This document shows positions 1,463-21,884 of a stretch of 64,000 nucleotides of DNA, one piece after another. Within the stretch, counting starts at the first letter, position 1. Every line of letters begins with the position of its first letter. The notes below the pieces were generated by a model. That model did not search any database. It saw nothing but the letters and a program-made list of their open reading frames with translations, and was not told the DNA's origin. Origin of the DNA: Zhongshania aliphaticivorans (GTDB taxonomy: Bacteria; Pseudomonadota; Gammaproteobacteria; Pseudomonadales; Spongiibacteraceae); NCBI RefSeq assembly GCF_001586255.1, contig NZ_CP014544.1, positions 4,124,501 to 4,188,500 of the forward strand, written 5' to 3'. Position numbers and translations under genes: made by a program.

Positions 1463-1536
1463 TCATAGCGTCTTGCTCTGCGGAAAATTGGGGGGCGTAG
1501 CGCAAAAATTTGTCCCGCAGCAGCGCTTTGTTATGA
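1463..1536 (-). other. attC-like integron recombination site
   Basis: The 74 bp between the ABC-3C genes and the small gene form an imperfect palindrome. Read on the minus strand it opens with TCATAAC followed by AAAGCGCTGCTGCGGGAC and closes with CCGCAGAGCAAGACGCTATGA. CTGCGG pairs with CCGCAG, and AAATTT-like arms extend the stem around a GC-rich loop. This is the layout R''-L''-loop-L'-R' of attC sites in marine bacteria. The final R' box is GCTATGA rather than the canonical GTTRRRY, so recombination competence is uncertain. The repeated small cassette gene starts its homology exactly after this box, which supports the boundary. Confidence 0.6.
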
Positions 1537-1551
1537 GCTTTCCCATGGCGG

Positions 1552-3273
1552 CTAGGGAGCCAATTCTTGGTATTGCATCTTCAAAAATCTATTCTCTTTT
1601 GTAAATGCCGCTCGGGAGTATTCATTAAGGTTTATGTTTAGTAATTCTAAATCTGAACCACTAAATTTATCGCTATTAATAGTAAGTATATATTGCCTGC
1701 CACTGAGCAAATCAATATTTTCGCCAATGTAATTAATACTTTGAATTAAAGTATCTTGGTCAACATCAAAAATATTGTCATGCACTAAGAAGCCGGGGTG
1801 ATGCTTCGATGTTTCTGGGTTTATCAGCAAAGCAAAGTCATATAGAAATACTTTTTCTCTGTTGATACTGTGACTTCCATCTGAGTCAGTGCGAAGTTCA
1901 AATTTCAAAACTTCCTTTCGTTTTGAAACTTCAATTCCAAATGAGCTTCTTCTGTTTCCAAAAACATAATCGTGCATATCAAGAATTGTTCTTTCAAAAG
2001 AATCAATTACTTCTTGTGAGTTATTCACATAGCTTTCTAAAAGATAAACTTCACTTTCTCGATCACGTTTTTTTGCTTTATATTCGCTGTCATAATCAGC
2101 GTGTTTTTGGATAAATGAGGATAAGGCGGAAAACTCCGCAATCTTTTTTTCGTGTATTGCGATTGTTTGCTTTAAACTGACAAGCAGACCTTCTTGGTCA
2201 AGTAATGATATTTTTTCTCTGTACAGCTTGTTGAGTGAAGATATACTGTCTTCAAATGCCTTTATTTCTTGTTCAATCGAAGATTTTCTATCATCCATTA
2301 TGCTTCGCTGAAAGTTGTCAATCTTTTGTTTGAAAGCAGTGACCTCATCCAATTCACGCTTAATTAAGTCGCCCAATCCTTCTTTGAACTGATTATAAAG
2401 GTCTGCAACTTCCTGGCCGTCAATATAGTTATCCCCGCGAAAAAGCTTTATTTTTGATAGCTCTGATTTCAAAACACCTTGCCTTGAGCGTTCTTGATCA
2501 AGCTGATTTTCAATACCAATGATTTCATCTTTTACGACATCAAAGCCTTCAATGTTCTCAAGCCTATCAATGTCACCCTGAATTCTACGCACTTGATTTT
2601 CTAATTCGTTTAAGTCTGCCTTGGATTCTGATATGTTTTTGCTTGTAAGCGTAGTTATGTTTTCTTCCATCTTTTTTCTAGCTTTTGAAACGTTTTCCAT
2701 TTCAGAATATAGCCGTTTGGCTTCGCTGTATGGATTTGGATCAACGTGCAGCAAAAAAAGATGAGGAGTGTAATCAGGCGGTATTCTTTTGTTTGTGTCG
2801 AAACAGCTAATAATGGACTTAAATTCAGAACCTTCATCACGCATCAATGGACCCATCATCATTCTAAAGGAAGGTGGATTTTCATAGGCTACGCCTGCAA
2901 ATAACAAGGTGCTTAGGTGATCGTTAGCATCAGAAAGCCTCGAGTAAGATTTTCTTTCGCCGTCTATGATTAGAGTCGGACACTCTTGATCATTTATAAC
3001 TCGCCTAGAAGTGATGGCGTGACCATTTAATTCAAAGTCTAAACATACGACTGTATCACGTGATAAATTTTCTTCAGGTATTAGTGATACTCGGCTATCG
3101 TGGTGACGTTTCAACAAGGCGTAGTTGATGAACTCGACAGCCATGGATTTTCCCACACCGTTAGTTTTAACATTCCCTTCAGTGGTTTCACCTAATATAA
3201 GGTTGAACCCATCTTCAAAAATAATGGGCTCAAAAATTTCAGGTTCGCTGTAAAGTTTTTTAATTTTTAACAT
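1552..3273 (-). CDS. ABC-3C system ATPase component (DUF2326-like, SMC/RecN-type coiled-coil ATPase)
   Basis: This 573-residue protein is a split ABC ATPase of the kind found in ABC-three-component conflict systems. The N-terminal lobe has a beta strand, then a Walker A with an unusual insertion (GETTEGNVKTNGVGKS, about residues 28-43). A long heptad-rich coiled coil occupies about residues 190-430. The C-terminal lobe carries a DUF2326-like region with a Walker B-like strand ending FLVHDNIFD (about 500-508). In known families such ATPases are thought to sense nucleic acid or another invader signal and gate a partner. It overlaps the next upstream gene by 14 bp, indicating one transcript. AT-rich composition contrasts with the core genes and suggests transfer. 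Target and effector activity are not known. Confidence 0.8.
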   Translation of the reverse strand: MLKIKKLYSEPEIFEPIIFEDGFNLILGETTEGNVKTNGVGKSMAVEFINYALLKRHHDSRVSLIPEENLSRDTVVCLDFELNGHAITSRRVINDQECPTLIIDGERKSYSRLSDANDHLSTLLFAGVAYENPPSFRMMMGPLMRDEGSEFKSIISCFDTNKRIPPDYTPHLFLLHVDPNPYSEAKRLYSEMENVSKARKKMEENITTLTSKNISESKADLNELENQVRRIQGDIDRLENIEGFDVVKDEIIGIENQLDQERSRQGVLKSELSKIKLFRGDNYIDGQEVADLYNQFKEGLGDLIKRELDEVTAFKQKIDNFQRSIMDDRKSSIEQEIKAFEDSISSLNKLYREKISLLDQEGLLVSLKQTIAIHEKKIAEFSALSSFIQKHADYDSEYKAKKRDRESEVYLLESYVNNSQEVIDSFERTILDMHDYVFGNRRSSFGIEVSKRKEVLKFELRTDSDGSHSINREKVFLYDFALLINPETSKHHPGFLVHDNIFDVDQDTLIQSINYIGENIDLLSGRQYILTINSDKFSGSDLELLNINLNEYSRAAFTKENRFLKMQYQELAP

Positions 3274-3502
3274 TTTTAATCAAATATGGTTCGTCGAATT
3301 CAACTATGTCTAAACAATACAAGAAAAGCATTCCATAGTAGATGCTTCGTGCCGTAATTTTATTGGTCTTTCTTAAATTCTTTGCCAGATCGAAAATGCT
3401 AATTCGACCATCATCACTACTCTGTATCTGCTTTAATATTTCTGACCCAATAAATGGTGCTGACTTCATTAAGTCTTCATCTTTTGTGAACAAGTTAGCC
3501 AT
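3260..3502 (-). CDS. ABC-3C system middle component (small winged-helix-like protein)
   Basis: This 80-residue protein sits between the SMEK-domain gene and the ATPase gene, overlapping both (8 bp and 14 bp). That position and size define the middle component of ABC-three-component systems. The sequence is predicted mainly helical, with a pattern (ISIFDLAKNLRK...ARSIYYGMLFLYCLDIVEFDEPYL) resembling a winged-helix fold. It is probably of the MC6-like type, but I can support the sub-class only weakly. In known systems it is thought to bridge the ATPase to the sensor or effector protein. It is too short for confident recognition outside this context; the operon context carries most of the call. 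Confidence 0.7.
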   Translation of the reverse strand: MANLFTKDEDLMKSAPFIGSEILKQIQSSDDGRISIFDLAKNLRKTNKITARSIYYGMLFLYCLDIVEFDEPYLIKNVKN

Positions 3503-4454
3503 TTTCTACTTCCTTGTTTGGGAATACGTTGCACCTAATTAGATGCTTAACGATATAGAACTGTGCAGCACCAGTATCAGCTTCAAAACCGTTTTCAGCC
3601 AACATTCCAATGAAGTTGTCAATTAGCTTTTCAAGTGCATTTTTCGAGTCACCACCACATTCAGTTAAGACCTTATCACTGTAAACTCGTAAATGTTGCG
3701 AAACACGACGAATTTTAACCTGACCAATATCTGATTCTTGTTCTACCGAATCAAGAACAGCACCGTAATCCTGATAAAGTGTTAGAAATTCCTGTTTAAG
3801 GAAATCTGAATGATCTGCAAAACGTTTATTAATTTTTTCTTCTGGAAATGGCTCATCAAGAAACCCTTCACCAGCGGCGGGGTGTTCTTCGTCACTGATT
3901 AGTTCAATTAGCCGTAAAATGGTTTCTACATTACGCGGAAGGCTTTCAATGGGCTTCACGTAAAGCTGCTTATTCAGAAAGTTACTGATCTCCTTAATTT
4001 TCGACAGCTCTAAGTCATTGATCATCACAGCCAAGTCGCCTATGTCCCATATATCATCTTTGGTGTTCAGGCTGTAAGTGCTGTCGCCAACAGTTTCGGC
4101 AGTGTGTGCGGTCTTCGCTGTGATGTTTAGAATTACTAGATGATCGTACTTTTCGTACAAGCCTTTTTCAATAAACTTAGTAACGGTGTGCCTTGTTTTG
4201 GCAAGTGCTGAAGTAGATGTCACCTGAATAGCAAACTTGTTACCTTCGTCCCCAAGGTCTATAGCGGCAGCGTTGGCGTCAATGATGTTTATATTGACTA
4301 AACTGTAACCAAAAGCCAGATTCAACAGATCGCGATAGAAGTTTTCGGAGTGAACGTTTATGTCCGTAAGATTCAGTCTATTGTGTACTGTTACCTGAGT
4401 AGAAAGCCAAGTAAGCGAGTTGATAACTGATTTTTGATAGTCTTGGCGATTCAT
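3495..4454 (-). CDS. SMEK-domain protein, first gene of the ABC-3C operon
   Basis: The 319-residue product begins with an approximately 150-residue SMEK domain. Hallmarks are LTDINVHSENFYRDLLNL (about residues 28-45), NAAAIDLGDE and the strand FAIQVTSTSALAKTRHT (about 74-90), and the run YEKYDHLVILNI. The domain has a restriction-endonuclease-like look, with Glu36, Asp67 and Gln76 as plausible active-site positions (inference). The C-terminal half is helical and of unknown function. It is transcribed first in a three-gene operon with the small middle component and the DUF2326-like ATPase, matching published ABC-3C organisation. A phage-defence role is inferred from the family and not shown here. 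Confidence 0.78.
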   Translation of the reverse strand: MNRQDYQKSVINSLTWLSTQVTVHNRLNLTDINVHSENFYRDLLNLAFGYSLVNINIIDANAAAIDLGDEGNKFAIQVTSTSALAKTRHTVTKFIEKGLYEKYDHLVILNITAKTAHTAETVGDSTYSLNTKDDIWDIGDLAVMINDLELSKIKEISNFLNKQLYVKPIESLPRNVETILRLIELISDEEHPAAGEGFLDEPFPEEKINKRFADHSDFLKQEFLTLYQDYGAVLDSVEQESDIGQVKIRRVSQHLRVYSDKVLTECGGDSKNALEKLIDNFIGMLAENGFEADTGAAQFYIVKHLIRCNVFPNKEVENG

Positions 4455-4530
4455 CTTGCTTTCATTATTTTAGGTACGTTCATCACACTATACAGTCTTA
4501 TATAAAGGCTGGTTAAGCTCGAAATCATAC

Positions 4531-4596
4531 GCATAACGCTGTAGATTTGCATCTCATATTGACCCTCTAGTTGCACAAAAAGGTAACCCGCTATAA
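4531..4596 (-). other. attC-like site upstream of the ABC-3C operon
   Basis: About 75 bp upstream of the ABC-3C operon an imperfect palindrome runs on the minus strand from TTATAGCGGG to CAGCGTTATGC. The terminal GTTATGC has the canonical crossover GTT, while the other arm reads TATAGC instead of TATAAC. An internal pair TTTGTGCA / TGCAAA can extend the stem. Together with the site at 1463-1536 it would bracket the operon as one three-gene cassette of about 3.07 kb. The evidence is weaker than for the downstream site because the arms match poorly. Confidence 0.4.
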
Positions 4597-4694
4597 TCAG
4601 CTTAAGCCATTGAAGAACTGCGTCTTTTGTGCGTTAAAGTGGGTCAGATCATCCTGCAAATTTTTACGATAATTGGTTCAAAATTAAATGCAAA

Positions 4695-4901
4695 TCAACA
4701 CTCACGATCGTTATCTGACAGCTCGGCGGGCAAGGGCCAGCAAAGCCCCAGCACAGAGGCGCGTTTGCCGTAGGTTGATACAGTGCCCACGCCGATGCCT
4801 AGGCTGCGCGCTATCTGTCTGTGACTTAGCTTTGCCTCAAGTTTAAGGCGGAGAATTTCTTTGATATGTCGCATTGCTAATCTCGTGTTTGGCATCGTCA
4901 T
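4695..4901 (-). pseudogene. IstA transposase, N-terminal fragment
   Basis: The 68-residue reading frame matches the beginning of IS21-family IstA: MPNTRLAMRHIKEILRLK, then the helix-turn-helix HRQIARSLGIGVGTVSTY, then WPLPAELSD. Normal IstA continues for about 500 residues with a DDE catalytic domain, and none of that is present here. The frame ends after a few unrelated residues (NDREC) where the element is cut. It is a dead fragment; residual DNA binding to the adjacent IS end is conceivable but speculative. Confidence 0.85.
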
Positions 4902-4976
4902 CCCGGCGCAAAAGCGGCAAGGATAACGTGCAGTACAGGATGAGTTTCAATGCATGAGGTGGTGTGGAGATTGATG

Positions 4977-5122
4977 GTGATCAGTCATTGCGGCAACCTG
5001 ATCACCCGTTGCGATAAGTCCCGTAAAGTGATCACTTTACATCGCAATGAGTGATCACGTTCGTTCGCAACAGGTGATCACGTTGCGTCGCAGGCGGTGA
5101 TCAGGTTGGGTCGGAATACGCA
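4977..5122. repeat. Terminal repeat array of the IS21 remnant
   Basis: GTGATCA or its complement TGATCAC recurs six times at irregular spacing of about 20-25 bp. The last three units share the longer form GTGATCACGTT-n-GTCGCA. IS21-family ends contain several such transposase-binding repeats, and the adjacent istA start fits. Spacing and unit sequence are too irregular for a CRISPR array. Confidence 0.75.
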
Positions 5123-5354: not shown

Positions 5355-5398
5355 TGGGGGTGTGGGGGTCGCAGGTTCGAATCCTGCCGTTCCGACCA
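5355..5398 (+). other. 3' fragment of tRNA-Pro(GGG), probable integration scar
   Basis: Forty-four bases match a tRNA-Pro with anticodon GGG from the anticodon loop (TGGGGGT) through the T arm (GCAGGTTCGAATCCTGC) to the acceptor strand and encoded CCA (CGTTCCGACCA). The expected 5' half, beginning CGGAACG with a D arm, is absent upstream. It is therefore not a working tRNA gene. Such fragments arise when a tyrosine integrase recombines in the anticodon loop of a tRNA gene. The sequence to the left would then be the former or current island. Confidence 0.75.
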
Positions 5399-7000: not shown

Positions 7001-7729
7001 TCAATTTGCTTTCTTCATTTCTGCTTTAAGCGCGCTTGCTTTCAAGGCCAGCATTTCCTTAACGGTCGATTCAACAAGCTGAGAATTGAATAGCGATGTA
7101 GGAACATCGCCGTTCAATAATGTATGCATTTCATAAATCACATCGGTACCGTTGTCGCCGTTTGGCTTAATACAATACAGAAGAGTTGATTGCGCTCTAA
7201 TCAAGCCTTGCTGAGGGTAGCTATTATCGACGGTCTCGCCATAGAGGCGCCTCATTCCTGTGTTTTGAAATTCGTCCACGCGGTACTTTAACACAAGGTC
7301 TCGATCCGCAATCGGCCATGGCAGGTCAAGCACCAAATATATAACGTTACTCTGTTCTGAAATTGTCTCAATTACCTTTGATTTCTTGCATTGCGAGCGC
7401 CATTCGGAGCAGCCGTTTGGCTTTGTGAAATCGCTGCCGAACGCAGAAAAAACCGATGGCGCAGTCGCGTCAATCTTCATCACGGCGCGCACCGCCTTGT
7501 AATCGCTCCCGCTGACTGTTTTGACGAAGATCTCAAGGTCTTTTTTAGTTTCACTTAACTCCCATGAGTCGTGAGTACTATTGCTGGCCTCAGGTGTTGG
7601 GAGCTGAAGACTGCAGACCTGGTTGCTGGAGTCGGCAAGCGCCGTGGTGGGATAATTGCTTGCAATACCTAGGATGAAAATTGTTAGGGCTTTAGCTAAA
7701 TCTCTTTTAAAACAATAGATTATATTCAT
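7001..7729 (-). CDS. START-domain lipid-binding-like secreted protein
   Basis: The 242-residue protein has an N-terminal signal peptide (hydrophobic stretch about residues 12-32, cleavage probably after ALA). The remainder resembles a START/polyketide-cyclase-type fold: DLEIFVKTVSGSDYKAVRAVMKIDATAPSVFSAF near 65-100, VIYLVLDLPWPIADRDLVLKYRV near 130-152, and a C-terminal amphipathic helix. START domains form a hydrophobic pocket for sterols, phospholipids or other hydrophobic ligands. It is the first gene of a leftward pair with the MerR-type regulator and is divergent from the DUF3604 gene. This context suggests it binds the compound processed by the locus, but that is inference. Confidence 0.75.
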   Translation of the reverse strand: MNIIYCFKRDLAKALTIFILGIASNYPTTALADSSNQVCSLQLPTPEASNSTHDSWELSETKKDLEIFVKTVSGSDYKAVRAVMKIDATAPSVFSAFGSDFTKPNGCSEWRSQCKKSKVIETISEQSNVIYLVLDLPWPIADRDLVLKYRVDEFQNTGMRRLYGETVDNSYPQQGLIRAQSTLLYCIKPNGDNGTDVIYEMHTLLNGDVPTSLFNSQLVESTVKEMLALKASALKAEMKKAN

Positions 7730-19203: not shown

Positions 19204-19241
19204 AAAAAAGGGCTCTGACCCCTTTAATTTGACCCCTTTAA
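19204..19241. repeat. RAYT-associated terminal repeat
   Basis: The sequence contains AAAAAAGGGCTCTGACCCC followed by two TTTAATT units joined by TGACCCC, just upstream of the RAYT gene. GGGGTCAGAGCCC-type ends accompany this transposase group. The repeat abuts the truncated copy of the small cassette gene, marking the probable insertion boundary. Confidence 0.55.
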
Positions 19242-19324
19242 TTAGTGACTTCGATGGCTTTTGGCATATAGGTAAACGCAATTTTTAATGCGTTTAAAGC
19301 AGAGGGGCTTAGTTTTTCGGTCAT
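19238..19324 (-). pseudogene. Truncated second copy of the small cassette gene
   Basis: Twenty-eight codons, MTEKLSPSALNALKIAF then TYMPKAIEVTN, match the first 27 residues of the protein encoded at 1209-1433. In about 89 aligned bases only three differ. The similarity ends where the RAYT-associated repeat begins, which supplies the TAA stop. Upstream, similarity continues through the leader to the attC-like site at 19354-19438. The copy lacks the C-terminal 47 residues and is presumably non-functional. Confidence 0.85.
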
Positions 19325-19353
19325 TATAATACTCAGTATTTAATTGTTTGTAT

Positions 19354-19438
19354 TCAGAACACCGCTAGTATGCGCGGCCTTGTAGTGGAGGTGAAGCCAC
19401 AACGAAAAAAGTTGTCGCAATGACTACCCTTGTTATAG
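19354..19438 (-). other. attC-like site
   Basis: On the minus strand an 85-bp imperfect palindrome runs from CTATAACAAGG, which overlaps the stop codon of the gene at 19433, to GTGTTCTGA. ACAAC-TTTTTTC-GTTGT forms the inner hairpin and GTAGT pairs with ACTAC further out. The repeated small cassette sequence begins immediately after the GTT, exactly where cassette insertion would occur. The R' box GTTCTGA is degenerate. Confidence 0.5.
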
Positions 19439-20020
19439 AGCGATCTCGTTCTTAGCTTGGAAGCAGTCTGCAAATTTATCAAATGATTCGTAAACATCTT
19501 TGGTTAACTGAGGTTGACCGGTTAGTATTGATGCAAACACAGCAGTTAATCCATTTACACCATTTGATGCTTTAAGAGCATGTTCTAGTATTTGGATGGG
19601 ATAGCCTTTGCTATGGCGGTCAATCGCGTGTAGACCGCCATGCACATAGGAACTTAATGGCTTCCAAGAATATTGTTTAAACTCTAGGATTGGATCAATA
19701 GCATTTTTTGGAGCTTTCTTTTCAAGCTGGCTAATCATTTCACTCAGCATGGGGAGCTTGTTGGCTATTTTTTGGTTCTCTTCGTTTAGTTCAGCCGTTA
19801 GCTTGGTCAATTCTGTTTCAGAAGCTGCATAAAGAACCCATATGCCACGTACCAAACACTCAAATTGAAGGCGAAGTAAACCTATAGCTGAAGTGAAATT
19901 CCTTAATGACAATAAAATCTTAAAGCTCTCTGCATGCTCTAAAGACACACTGCACATCACCTTACTCACTCTGATTCTGTCAGAATTGTCGTAAAAAGGC
20001 TGCTTGAGAATATGCAACAC
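19433..20020 (-). CDS. Cassette-encoded helical protein of unknown function (DUF6988-like)
   Basis: The annotated frame of 195 residues begins at a GTG. Coding similarity seems to extend upstream: FIIDKLLVRSSEFEDY is in frame before it, and AAAGGGA precedes an ATT or ATA codon at 20060-20065. The true start may therefore be a rare non-ATG codon there, adding 14-15 residues. The protein is mostly helical, with the segment SAIGLLRLQFECLVRGIWVLYAA (about 44-66) and a conserved-looking YVHGG near 125. It resembles a DUF6988-type family of unknown function, an assignment made from memory of the pattern only. attC-like sites flank it. Confidence 0.55.
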   Translation of the reverse strand: MLHILKQPFYDNSDRIRVSKVMCSVSLEHAESFKILLSLRNFTSAIGLLRLQFECLVRGIWVLYAASETELTKLTAELNEENQKIANKLPMLSEMISQLEKKAPKNAIDPILEFKQYSWKPLSSYVHGGLHAIDRHSKGYPIQILEHALKASNGVNGLTAVFASILTGQPQLTKDVYESFDKFADCFQAKNEIAL

Positions 20021-20080
20021 ATAGTCTTCAAACTCTGAGGATCTTACAAGTAACTTGTCTATAATGAATCCCTTTTAGTT

Positions 20081-20135
20081 TTATAGCGGCCGGTTAAGCA
20101 ACCCCGTTGATGTCGGATTAAACCGGTTGCTATGC
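20081..20135 (-). other. attC-like site
   Basis: A compact 55-bp imperfect palindrome separates two cassette genes. On the minus strand it opens GCATAGCAACCGGTTTAA and closes TTAACCGGCCGCTATAA. The arms pair well (CCGGTT-AA with TT-AACCGG), around a short loop. Both outer boxes have GC where attC consensus has AA or TT (TAGC/GCTA), a compensated change that keeps the stem. It starts four bases after the stop codon of the upstream gene. Confidence 0.45.
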
Positions 20136-20138
20136 TAA

Positions 20139-20858
20139 TCATCCGCACTCACCATGTTCAAATCTTGCTTTCTTTGCGGCGCTGTAGGCATCAGCGATAA
20201 TAGTTAACGAATCATTTGGTTCGGATGCAAACTTTACATCATCATTAGTAGTAATAACCCAATTGACGTTATCTTGATACCGGCCCCATCTATAACGAGG
20301 ATGCTGTTTGGAATATTTTTTTTGATAATATATTTCGTCTAGCTCAATCAGTAATTTTCTTTGAGCTTCACTGTCTATTTGAGGTATTTCTCGATCCGGG
20401 AACTGATCCGATATGAATGGAGGCAAATCAGTCTCTAGAGTCCAACTCCAAAAAGCATGATCAAAAGATTTTGCATTCCATACTTCCCACGCTTGCCCAG
20501 CAAACAGCTCCATTCGAAACCCATCCGAAGGCCATTCCCACTCATAATTTTTAAAAGCCATTTTCGTGGTCTTAATCTGCCCACTAGCAAGCACAACAAT
20601 TTTTTTTGAATCGACGCTTAATTGGTAAGCTTTTTTTCGGTCGAGATCAGTTGGTTCTGGGCCTTTCACTTCAAACCAACAGTCCAATTGAGGAAGCCAA
20701 AAGTCAGGTAGATATTTGACGCCGGAACTTAATGTGAACCCTTCGGGCTCATAATCCCATTTGAGCTTGAGACTCTCAAAGAAAACAGCCCATCTAGCTT
20801 CTAGGCGCGACCTAAACTTACAACCTCTGTACACTGTTTCAATCGGACTCATAGGCAT
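20139..20858 (-). CDS. PD-(D/E)XK-like nuclease candidate in a cassette
   Basis: The first 70 residues of this 239-residue protein form a compact nuclease-like motif series. These are the basic Arg in YRGCKFRSRLEARWAVFFE (about residues 10-28), with Glu in RLEARW, then KYLPDFWLP (Asp near 52) and CWFEVKG (Glu-x-Lys near 63-65). E...D...ExK is the order expected for PD-(D/E)XK enzymes, including Tn7 TnsA-like and phage-type nucleases. The C-terminal 170 residues are not recognised; they are rich in Trp and charged residues. It is flanked by attC-like sites on both sides. A DNA-cleaving or defence-related role is inference. Confidence 0.6.
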   Translation of the reverse strand: MPMSPIETVYRGCKFRSRLEARWAVFFESLKLKWDYEPEGFTLSSGVKYLPDFWLPQLDCWFEVKGPEPTDLDRKKAYQLSVDSKKIVVLASGQIKTTKMAFKNYEWEWPSDGFRMELFAGQAWEVWNAKSFDHAFWSWTLETDLPPFISDQFPDREIPQIDSEAQRKLLIELDEIYYQKKYSKQHPRYRWGRYQDNVNWVITTNDDVKFASEPNDSLTIIADAYSAAKKARFEHGECG

Positions 20859-20875
20859 CCGAAATTACTTTTAAA

Positions 20876-20916
20876 GCATAGCGCATCGATAGTCGGCGGC
20901 TACGCAGTAGCTATCC
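20876..20916 (-). other. Short inverted repeat, possible degraded attC
   Basis: GCATAGC at 20876-20882 and GCTATCC at 20910-20916 form outer arms. GCTAC-GCA-GTAGC lies inside. The spacing of 41 bp is shorter than typical attC sites, so the identification depends on its position between two cassette-like genes. A transcription terminator is an alternative, but no T run follows. Confidence 0.3.
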
Positions 20917-20939
20917 GTGTTGATTGACCTTTTAAATGG

Positions 20940-21884
20940 TTATTTTTTGTCTTTCTCAAAAGCATCGAAACCCGTATCTACAGAACCAACATATCGGATG
21001 TTCTTCTGTTTAAAAATACCAAACAGAAAGTCAACGAAGTTTAAGAATTCATATATTTCATTAGCCGCTTGATACTCGCTAGTACCTACTTTAATAATCT
21101 TACTACCGAGTAGCTCAGTAGCTTCGTCAGAATCTATTACAAAGCTGTGGTCTTTATAGTGATTGGTAAAGTGATCAGCTAAACCTTCGCAAGTTTTTCC
21201 CTCAGGTAACTGCTTGCCATTGAGCAAGCGAATGGCGTATTGCGTTGCAGACTCATTGATGCGCTCAAAATAACCAAGATCTCGAATGTTTACATTGTCA
21301 GTTAGATATTTCGAAAACATGTCAGATGCTGATGGAAATCGCTCGGTCATTTGAGCAATCTTTTCTACAGCATTTGCCAAACCTAGAGCAGGAAATCCTC
21401 CAAATTGTGGATCAATAGGTCCTAATTCACTTAGAAGCCCCATATGTATTTCACTGGCACCCAACGAAACCAGAGTTGCTGCTGACTTTGCTCGCCGAGC
21501 GATAGCAACAGAAAATTTCTTTTTAGATAAACGTTTACACGTTTTACTAATTAGGTAAGCAGGTTCAATTTGACCTCCGCCACTTTCGACGAACATCAGA
21601 ATGTCTTTTTTCTTATCTAAATCAGATATTGCGCGATATATACGGTCTGAATGGTAGCCGGCTATAGATTTATATTCATCGAAAAGTAAAATAACGCAAT
21701 ATTTATCAAGGTCGTAGTCTTCGACAATTTTTTTAATATGGGAAGTGATTTTGTCTTTAATATCATCTTCTTCTAACTTATCACGAAACATTGCGACCTG
21801 ATCTGCGACAAGACTAAGATCATAAGACTTTTCTTCGATTTTTTTTTCGTCTTGCTCCACTTCGTTATTTTCTTCGTCTGCCAT
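20940..21884 (-). CDS. SDH-family serine protease (ClpP/SppA-class)
   Basis: The 314-residue soluble protein has an acidic, charged N-terminus (about residues 1-30) and then a crotonase/ClpP-like fold. ILMFVESGGGQIEPAYLISK (about 95-114) contains the oxyanion glycines. ARRAKSAATLVSLGASEIHMG (about 128-148) holds the probable nucleophile Ser. LLSELGPIDPQFGG (about 150-163) completes the signature of serine dehydrogenase proteinase (SDH) proteins. GGAGATAAT lies directly before the ATG. No membrane helix is evident, unlike most SppA proteins. It is the outermost gene of the cassette-like block. ClpP-class proteases occur in several conflict systems, but no partner is visible here. Confidence 0.78.
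   Translation of the reverse strand: MADEENNEVEQDEKKIEEKSYDLSLVADQVAMFRDKLEEDDIKDKITSHIKKIVEDYDLDKYCVILLFDEYKSIAGYHSDRIYRAISDLDKKKDILMFVESGGGQIEPAYLISKTCKRLSKKKFSVAIARRAKSAATLVSLGASEIHMGLLSELGPIDPQFGGFPALGLANAVEKIAQMTERFPSASDMFSKYLTDNVNIRDLGYFERINESATQYAIRLLNGKQLPEGKTCEGLADHFTNHYKDHSFVIDSDEATELLGSKIIKVGTSEYQAANEIYEFLNFVDFLFGIFKQKNIRYVGSVDTGFDAFEKDKK

Follow-up and report, generated by a model that had tools for sequence, protein, structure and literature searches.

A probable three-gene integron cassette encoding an ABC-3C conflict system in Zhongshania aliphaticivorans

ABC-three-component (ABC-3C)/Lamassu type II systems combine a nuclease, an SMC-like ATPase and a small linker protein (PMC12409362; PMC10586767). 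One of them, DdmABC, is described as protecting cells from plasmids as well as from phages, with abortive infection as its route against phages, and palindromic DNA may be what it responds to (PMC12409362; PMC10586767). SMEK appears among Argonaute-associated nuclease domains (PMC10810196), and a review describes defense systems of more than two genes as notably absent from integrons (PMC12409362). Here, we analyzed a 64,000-nt stretch of DNA (hereafter the window), bases 4124501-4188500 of the single-contig 4.20-Mb Zhongshania aliphaticivorans genome (G000), in which three overlapping minus-strand genes encode a SMEK-domain protein, a small middle component and a coiled-coil ATPase. On the sequence evidence given below, we consider it likely that these genes make up a single integron cassette for a conflict system of the ABC-3C (Lamassu/DdmABC-like) type, with a predicted defense function.

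The same three genes, in the same order and with overlaps, are found on rhizobial and Sphingomonas plasmids (SMEK 43-44%, middle component 35-40% and ATPase 39-41% identical), but the four plasmid loci searched gave no attC match with the model described below, whereas the window copy has the form of a cassette. DdmABC/Lamassu type II shares the ABC-3C layout, with a nuclease as effector, a small protein in the middle and an SMC-like ATPase; it differs in that DdmA has a Cap4 nuclease in place of SMEK, DdmB belongs to DUF6521 and DdmABC lies on a genomic island (PMC12409362; PMC10586767). The integron defense cassettes of the Darracq/Littner, Kieffer and Getz studies, as summarized in the review, likewise carry defense genes as cassettes, but the review describes systems of more than two genes as conspicuously missing from integrons (PMC12409362), compared with three genes and ~3.1 kb in a single cassette here. 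SMEK/Mrr-APAZ short prokaryotic Argonaute (pAgo) systems use the same nuclease domain family (26bh; Aga_REase; PMC10810196), whereas the window operon has no Argonaute and its partner is an ABC ATPase. The novelty lies in joining two kinds already known, the ABC-3C system and the integron cassette; a literature search yielded no paper on such a cassette, judging by titles and abstract openings.

Genes and protein families

A sequence-only reading of this DNA had described three overlapping genes and named their families. We confirmed the open reading frames (ORFs), with overlaps of 8 nt between the SMEK and middle-component genes and 14 nt between the middle-component and ATPase genes. The family assignments stood for the SMEK and DUF2326 proteins, both of which score above their cut-offs, and less firmly for the middle component. 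Features below lie on the minus strand of the window unless stated otherwise.

The first gene (3495-4454) encodes a 319-aa SMEK-domain protein whose N-terminal half is Mrr-type nuclease-like. SMEK_N (PF21941) matches it at E 3.7e-44, with 150 bits against a Pfam cut-off of 27; the effector component of an ABC-3C system is present. A Protein Data Bank (PDB) search returned a sole match up to E 0.1, entry 26bh, the Mrr domain of a Mrr-APAZ pAgo (E 4.5e-13), in the N-terminal half of the SMEK protein, and the PADLOC model for Argonaute-associated nucleases (Aga_REase) matches at E 2e-40.

The 80-aa MC6-like middle component (3260-3502) has the position and size expected of such a protein in an ABC-3C system. 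Its match to PF20293 (MC6, E 2.4e-4) scores 21.4 bits, under the Pfam gathering score of 27.2. MC6 is matched at E<=0.01 by 16 of the 19 aligned middle components, including this one, with 7e-6 as the best value.

The third gene (1552-3273) encodes a 573-aa DUF2326 coiled-coil ABC-type ATPase (PF10088, E 1.1e-19, 71 bits against a Pfam cut-off of 28.7), an ABC ATPase of the DUF2326 kind. It is matched by the PADLOC model PDC-M68B at E 4.1e-43 and by LmuB at E 0.012, and for its homolog in L112, a locus of genome G707, the corresponding values are 7.8e-57 and 2.7e-4. Given the LmuB value, we did not assign the window ATPase to Lamassu (LmuB-type SMC). A PDB search with the ATPase gave no match, and no relatives of it were found in viral contigs.

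A promoter-like TTAACC-18-TATAGT lies in the cassette leader (4487-4516), with the same -10 element in the nearest relative, L066, and a similar one in L067; promoter-like sites are not enriched relative to shuffled sequence (5 found, shuffle mean 8.6).

Cassette boundaries

Sites of attC type were scored with a covariance model, R1, built from an alignment (A1) of 50 attC sites that all come from the genus; the window's own genome supplied four of these, and the window none. The E-values of R1 are rough. Integron integrases were matched at E<=1e-40 in 15 of the 18 genus genomes searched, 14 of which pass the family cut-off, and a pattern scan found many attC sites in the arrays adjoining them. 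A stricter pattern scan gave 82 sites spread over L112 and ten loci belonging to the genus (11 in all), versus 1 in antisense orientation.

The top R1 match in window positions 1-24000 is the site at 1463-1536 (29.8 bits, E 8.7e-6, filters off), with R'' TCATAAC at 1536-1530 and R' GCTATGA at 1469-1463; across 325 kb with default filters, the same site has E 1.2e-4. Eight pattern-scan sites outside the R1 training set score 26.7-48.4 bits, a range that includes the window site. The other R1 matches in the 325 kb that are absent from the pattern scan all score below 29.8 bits: 23.1 (L026), 21.5 (L013, outside the range covered by that scan), 20.0 (L050) and 18.0 (a second window site). R1 missed at least one pattern-scan site (L050:5042-5140), and Rfam returned no match at its gathering scores.

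The sequence-only reading had placed attC-like palindromes at both flanks of the operon. The one at 1463-1536 held up, and the one at 4531-4596 did not: it has no R1 match up to E 10 (window 1-24000, filters off), and it folds no better than shuffles (z +1.29). Of this second flank, only GTTATGC (4531-4537) remains, as the R' core that marks the 5' cassette boundary and is complementary at 6/7 positions to the cassette's own R''. This boundary is set by L066, a locus in a Porticoccus metagenome-assembled genome (MAG). Over 3,007 bases (window 4539-1533), the window and L066 are 92.3% identical; homology starts two bases before GTTATGC, and in L066 the corresponding GTTATGC terminates an attC scoring 30.2 bits. 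On the 3' side, the shared block stops inside R'', after which L066 continues into other DNA. From the GTTATGC crossover to the crossover in the R' box of its attC, the cassette measures 3,068 bp (1469-4536).

Upstream, the cassette abuts a repeat of ~161 bp (4540-4700, no strand assigned) that resembles a miniature inverted-repeat transposable element (MITE), with ends that appear inverted by eye. Copies are found in genomes G005 (two), G002, G003 and G009, and the DNA at the junction in these five loci is not that of the window. Homology to the repeat in the five loci begins at 4538, 4539 or 4540, and the 'GC' at 4538-4539 is ambiguous: it may be part of the repeat or the terminal bases of an upstream att site since lost. 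No attI-like motif was matched upstream of the cassette with up to 3 mismatches. The lack of an upstream att site concerns the array and not the cassette as such; the site was probably lost to a transposable-element-like insertion or to deletion. The MITE-like repeat is followed by a 422-bp repeat (4701-5122), of which three more copies at 96% occur in the same genome and which overlaps a small helix-turn-helix ORF with a weak IS66 TnpA match.

Relatives, alternatives and evolution

A profile scan of 84,980 species genomes with the SMEK alignment gave 28 loci, and R1 was run on 32, these 28 plus the four plasmid loci. The nearest loci are L066 (93% identical), that of Alteromonadaceae Bs31 (L067, 87%) and a MAG contig labeled Maribacter (L068, 87%). 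In L066, the operon is cassette 2, preceded by an attI-like motif, a small ORF and the attC of 30.2 bits, and the same attI-like motif lies beside four genus integrases (L013, L052-L054). L067 has an attC of 31.7 bits behind the operon and another of 37.3 bits farther along. The ends of the L068 unit, GTTATGT and ACATAAC, agree at 7/7 positions, as do R' and R'' in L067 and L112. Besides those in L066, L067 and L068, the only R1 match among the 32 loci is in L074 (13.3 bits, E 3.4). Integrases over the family cut-off are present in the genomes of L066, where the integrase is on a different contig from the operon, and L067, and in none of the five other genomes searched.

Within the order, 4 of 390 genomes have a match at E<=1e-20: G000, G460 (at the same contig coordinates as L066), G632 (nearly those of L069) and G707. 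The G707 locus, L112, encodes a SMEK protein 50% identical to that of the window, and its operon is cassette 2 of an array with an attC on either side: attC 7387-7464 (50.5 bits), the ABC-3C genes, attC 4183-4254 (55.4 bits) and then more cassettes. An integrase fragment lies beside this stretch, in which eight attC matches reach E<0.01. At 3,204 bp, the G707 unit is the only one longer than 3 kb among 71 inter-attC distances (median 529).

A SMEK protein was found in 2 of 369 genomes of the class (the window's own and one at 29% identity), and alignment A5 matches 6 of 398 genomes of the phylum, own included, with G775 as the only other full-length match; in the family of G707, 2 of 22 genomes match, G707 counted. 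Loci L062-L064 keep the gene order, with overlaps of 8 and 11 nt. The Neptuniibacter (L069) and Halomonas (L070) loci, at 67-68% identity, gave no R1 match above 10.9 bits with filters off, and L114 gave no attC match in its 1.5-kb flanks. In L117 (G574), a 476-aa SMEK-type protein (1471-2901), of which only the N-terminal half matches A5, is preceded by an attC-like match at 1227-1282 (26.1 bits), a hint that integrons may also take up SMEK nucleases of other forms.

Because the window has a genuine attC and a 5' boundary confirmed by a relative, and because relatives lie near attC sites in L066, L067 and, with a weak site, L068, and between two such sites in G707, we favor the single three-gene cassette that the sequence-only reading had proposed, with a repeat as the DNA beyond its 5' boundary. 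A whole multi-subunit system of ~3 kb and three genes can evidently travel as a single cassette in several bacteria, in G707 between strong attC sites. Integrons are currently viewed as stores of small defense genes, and the review describes systems of more than two genes as notably absent from them (PMC12409362); the present case suggests that cassette surveys may overlook more large units.

Several observations weigh against this interpretation, beginning with the MC6 score and the weak LmuB match given above. No attC was found upstream of the window cassette (R1, window 1-24000, filters off), and the R' core of its attC is GCT, not GTT. The bottom strand of this attC folds just slightly better than shuffles (z -1.10) and that of L066 no better (z +0.96), and we do not accept fold energy as proof of an attC at either site. 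The open integrase lies 3.04 Mb off along the contig, or ~1.2 Mb if the contig is circular, and a second integrase, ~0.28 Mb away, is broken. Most relatives lie outside cassettes, an attC adjoining the operon in just 3 of the 32 loci (L066, L067 and L068). L066 has other DNA and no R1 attC match behind the operon, so that the window's own attC is what defines the 3' end of its cassette; the L067 ATPase is frameshifted, and the L067 alignment extends to window 4545, eight bases beyond the R' core; and the L068 alignment reaches only window 4468, in the leader, with a weak attC (17.9 bits, E 0.21).

For the cassette encoding an ABC-3C system, we infer an anti-phage or anti-plasmid function from family membership. 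The DUF2326 coiled-coil ATPase would sense foreign or abnormal DNA, and the MC6-like subunit would couple it to the SMEK protein, whose Mrr-like nuclease would cut DNA so that phage or plasmid propagation is stopped or the cell is killed. The cassette would have joined an array through IntI-mediated recombination; later, the upstream att site would have given way to the repeat and the R' core would have been altered, leaving a chromosomal copy that probably can no longer be excised.

Toxin-antitoxin cassettes stabilize arrays. A true cassette could likewise serve array stabilization (addiction) or another role in DNA metabolism instead of defense against phages or plasmids, the more so as ABC-3C function is read from family membership. 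We regard this as unlikely: the layout of nuclease, small middle protein and SMC-like ATPase is that of the tested DdmABC/Lamassu II (PMC12409362), and the ATPase is matched by a model in PADLOC, a library of known and candidate defense proteins. A more speculative proposal, which we would not expect to hold, is that this three-gene ABC-3C family entered integrons on two or more occasions, so that the limit of one to two genes seen in defense cassettes does not come from the recombination system, and that the cassette may also police or stabilize its array by acting on hairpin DNA or incoming cassettes. The latter idea arises because attC sites are palindromic and a reaction to palindromic DNA has been reported for DdmABC-type systems.

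There is very little chance that the genes are an ordinary chromosomal or island defense operon that happens to neighbor a stray attC. The single attC remaining in the window, the repeats and tRNA-Pro 3' fragment upstream, and the small share of loci with an adjoining attC would fit such an operon, but L066 homology begins at the 5' crossover point, where the L066 attC ends, the L112 operon is flanked by two attC sites and that of L066 follows an attI-like motif, an ORF and an attC. L066 and L112 already contradict this explanation. That two or three separate cassettes fused through loss of the intervening attC sites, conceivable given that integron cassettes usually hold one or two genes (similarly stated in PMC12409362), is scarcely credible, as the 8- and 14-nt overlaps leave no space for an attC and by themselves refute it, and plasmid loci that lack attC sites have comparable overlaps (8 and 11 nt).

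Alignment A5 and the SMEK tree leave out L079 and L082 (close to others), L086, L088 and L089 (short or broken frames) and L092 and L093 (other architectures), and the tree also omits L065; a joined three-protein tree further omits L067 (frameshift), L072, L074, L078, L084, L090, L091 and L114. In the joined tree, the window groups with L066 and L068, and G707 branches outside L069 and L070. A single clade of cassette-borne copies (window, L066, L068 and L112) was rejected in this tree (p-AU 4e-5), in a test made after the SMEK-only tree had been inspected. The SMEK-only tree groups the window with L066, L067 and L068 (96/98), and its placement of G707 is poorly supported. L069 and L070, without attC, branch between cassette-borne copies, so that either separate captures or later losses would fit the tree.

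Eight gene comparisons with L066, L067 and L068, which leave out the L067 ATPase, give ratios of nonsynonymous to synonymous substitution rates (dN/dS) of 0.05-0.23. These values favor selection to retain the proteins, with the exception of the L067 ATPase, and all three genes are under purifying selection. The window, L067 and L068 carry closely related operons with seemingly unrelated attC sites, homology of the window with the other two stopping near the ATPase stop codon.

Chromosomal neighborhood

Downstream of the attC lies a gene of 78/79 aa (1209-1448), and comparison within the genus shows that its upstream side differs among related species. Three genomes of the genus (G015, G002 and G006) and one of the order (G039) also have the 78-aa gene, and the window contains a partial second copy at 19238-19336. 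Where this neighbor is conserved in the genus, other DNA occupies the place of the cassette. In G015 this DNA is cassette-like, with a different gene and an attC-like sequence of 23.1 bits at the site before the 78-aa gene (L026); G002 has a palindrome by eye at the same place, without an R1 score, and G006 has none by eye. Sister strains with ABC-3C relatives at this locus but without cassette boundaries, which the sequence-only reading had named as the case against a cassette, were not found, and the 16 other genus genomes gave no match at E<=1e-20.

A second cassette-like stretch on the minus strand (19238-21884) contains an SDH-protease gene, a 239-aa gene without a Pfam match and a DUF6988/PDC-S52 gene (E 4.6e-82). 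Behind the DUF6988 gene lies an attC-like site at 19354-19438 (18.0 bits; E 0.011 in 24 kb, 0.15 in 325 kb). The copy of the 78-aa gene in this stretch is truncated to 33 codons, and two intergenic palindromes end, by eye, in GCT and not GTT. Because attC-like DNA adjoins the 78-aa gene in G015 and at its second copy in the window, several cassettes have probably occupied this spot. The GCT core hints that a single cassette was inserted at a chromosomal site other than an attC (an attG); we set this aside as unneeded given the upstream repeat and the cassette-like DNA of G015, and it is conceivable for the first cassette at this place.

One open integrase over the family cut-off, VchIntIA-like, is present in the genome. 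The broken second integrase (G000:C1:3849654-3850584, L014) is split over two frames with two internal TAG codons, near an attC of 49.6 bits that was part of R1 training. With no upstream attC, an altered R' core and a distant integrase, the window cassette looks stranded.

Farther upstream, a 3' fragment of tRNA-Pro(ggg) at 5371-5398 is identical over 28 bp to the intact gene elsewhere in the genome (G000:C1:1527177-1527204) and is possibly the scar of an integrated element. On the other side of the cassette, an IS630-family transposase gene (149-1174) belongs to an element at the 3' end of the 78-aa gene that adjoins the cassette.

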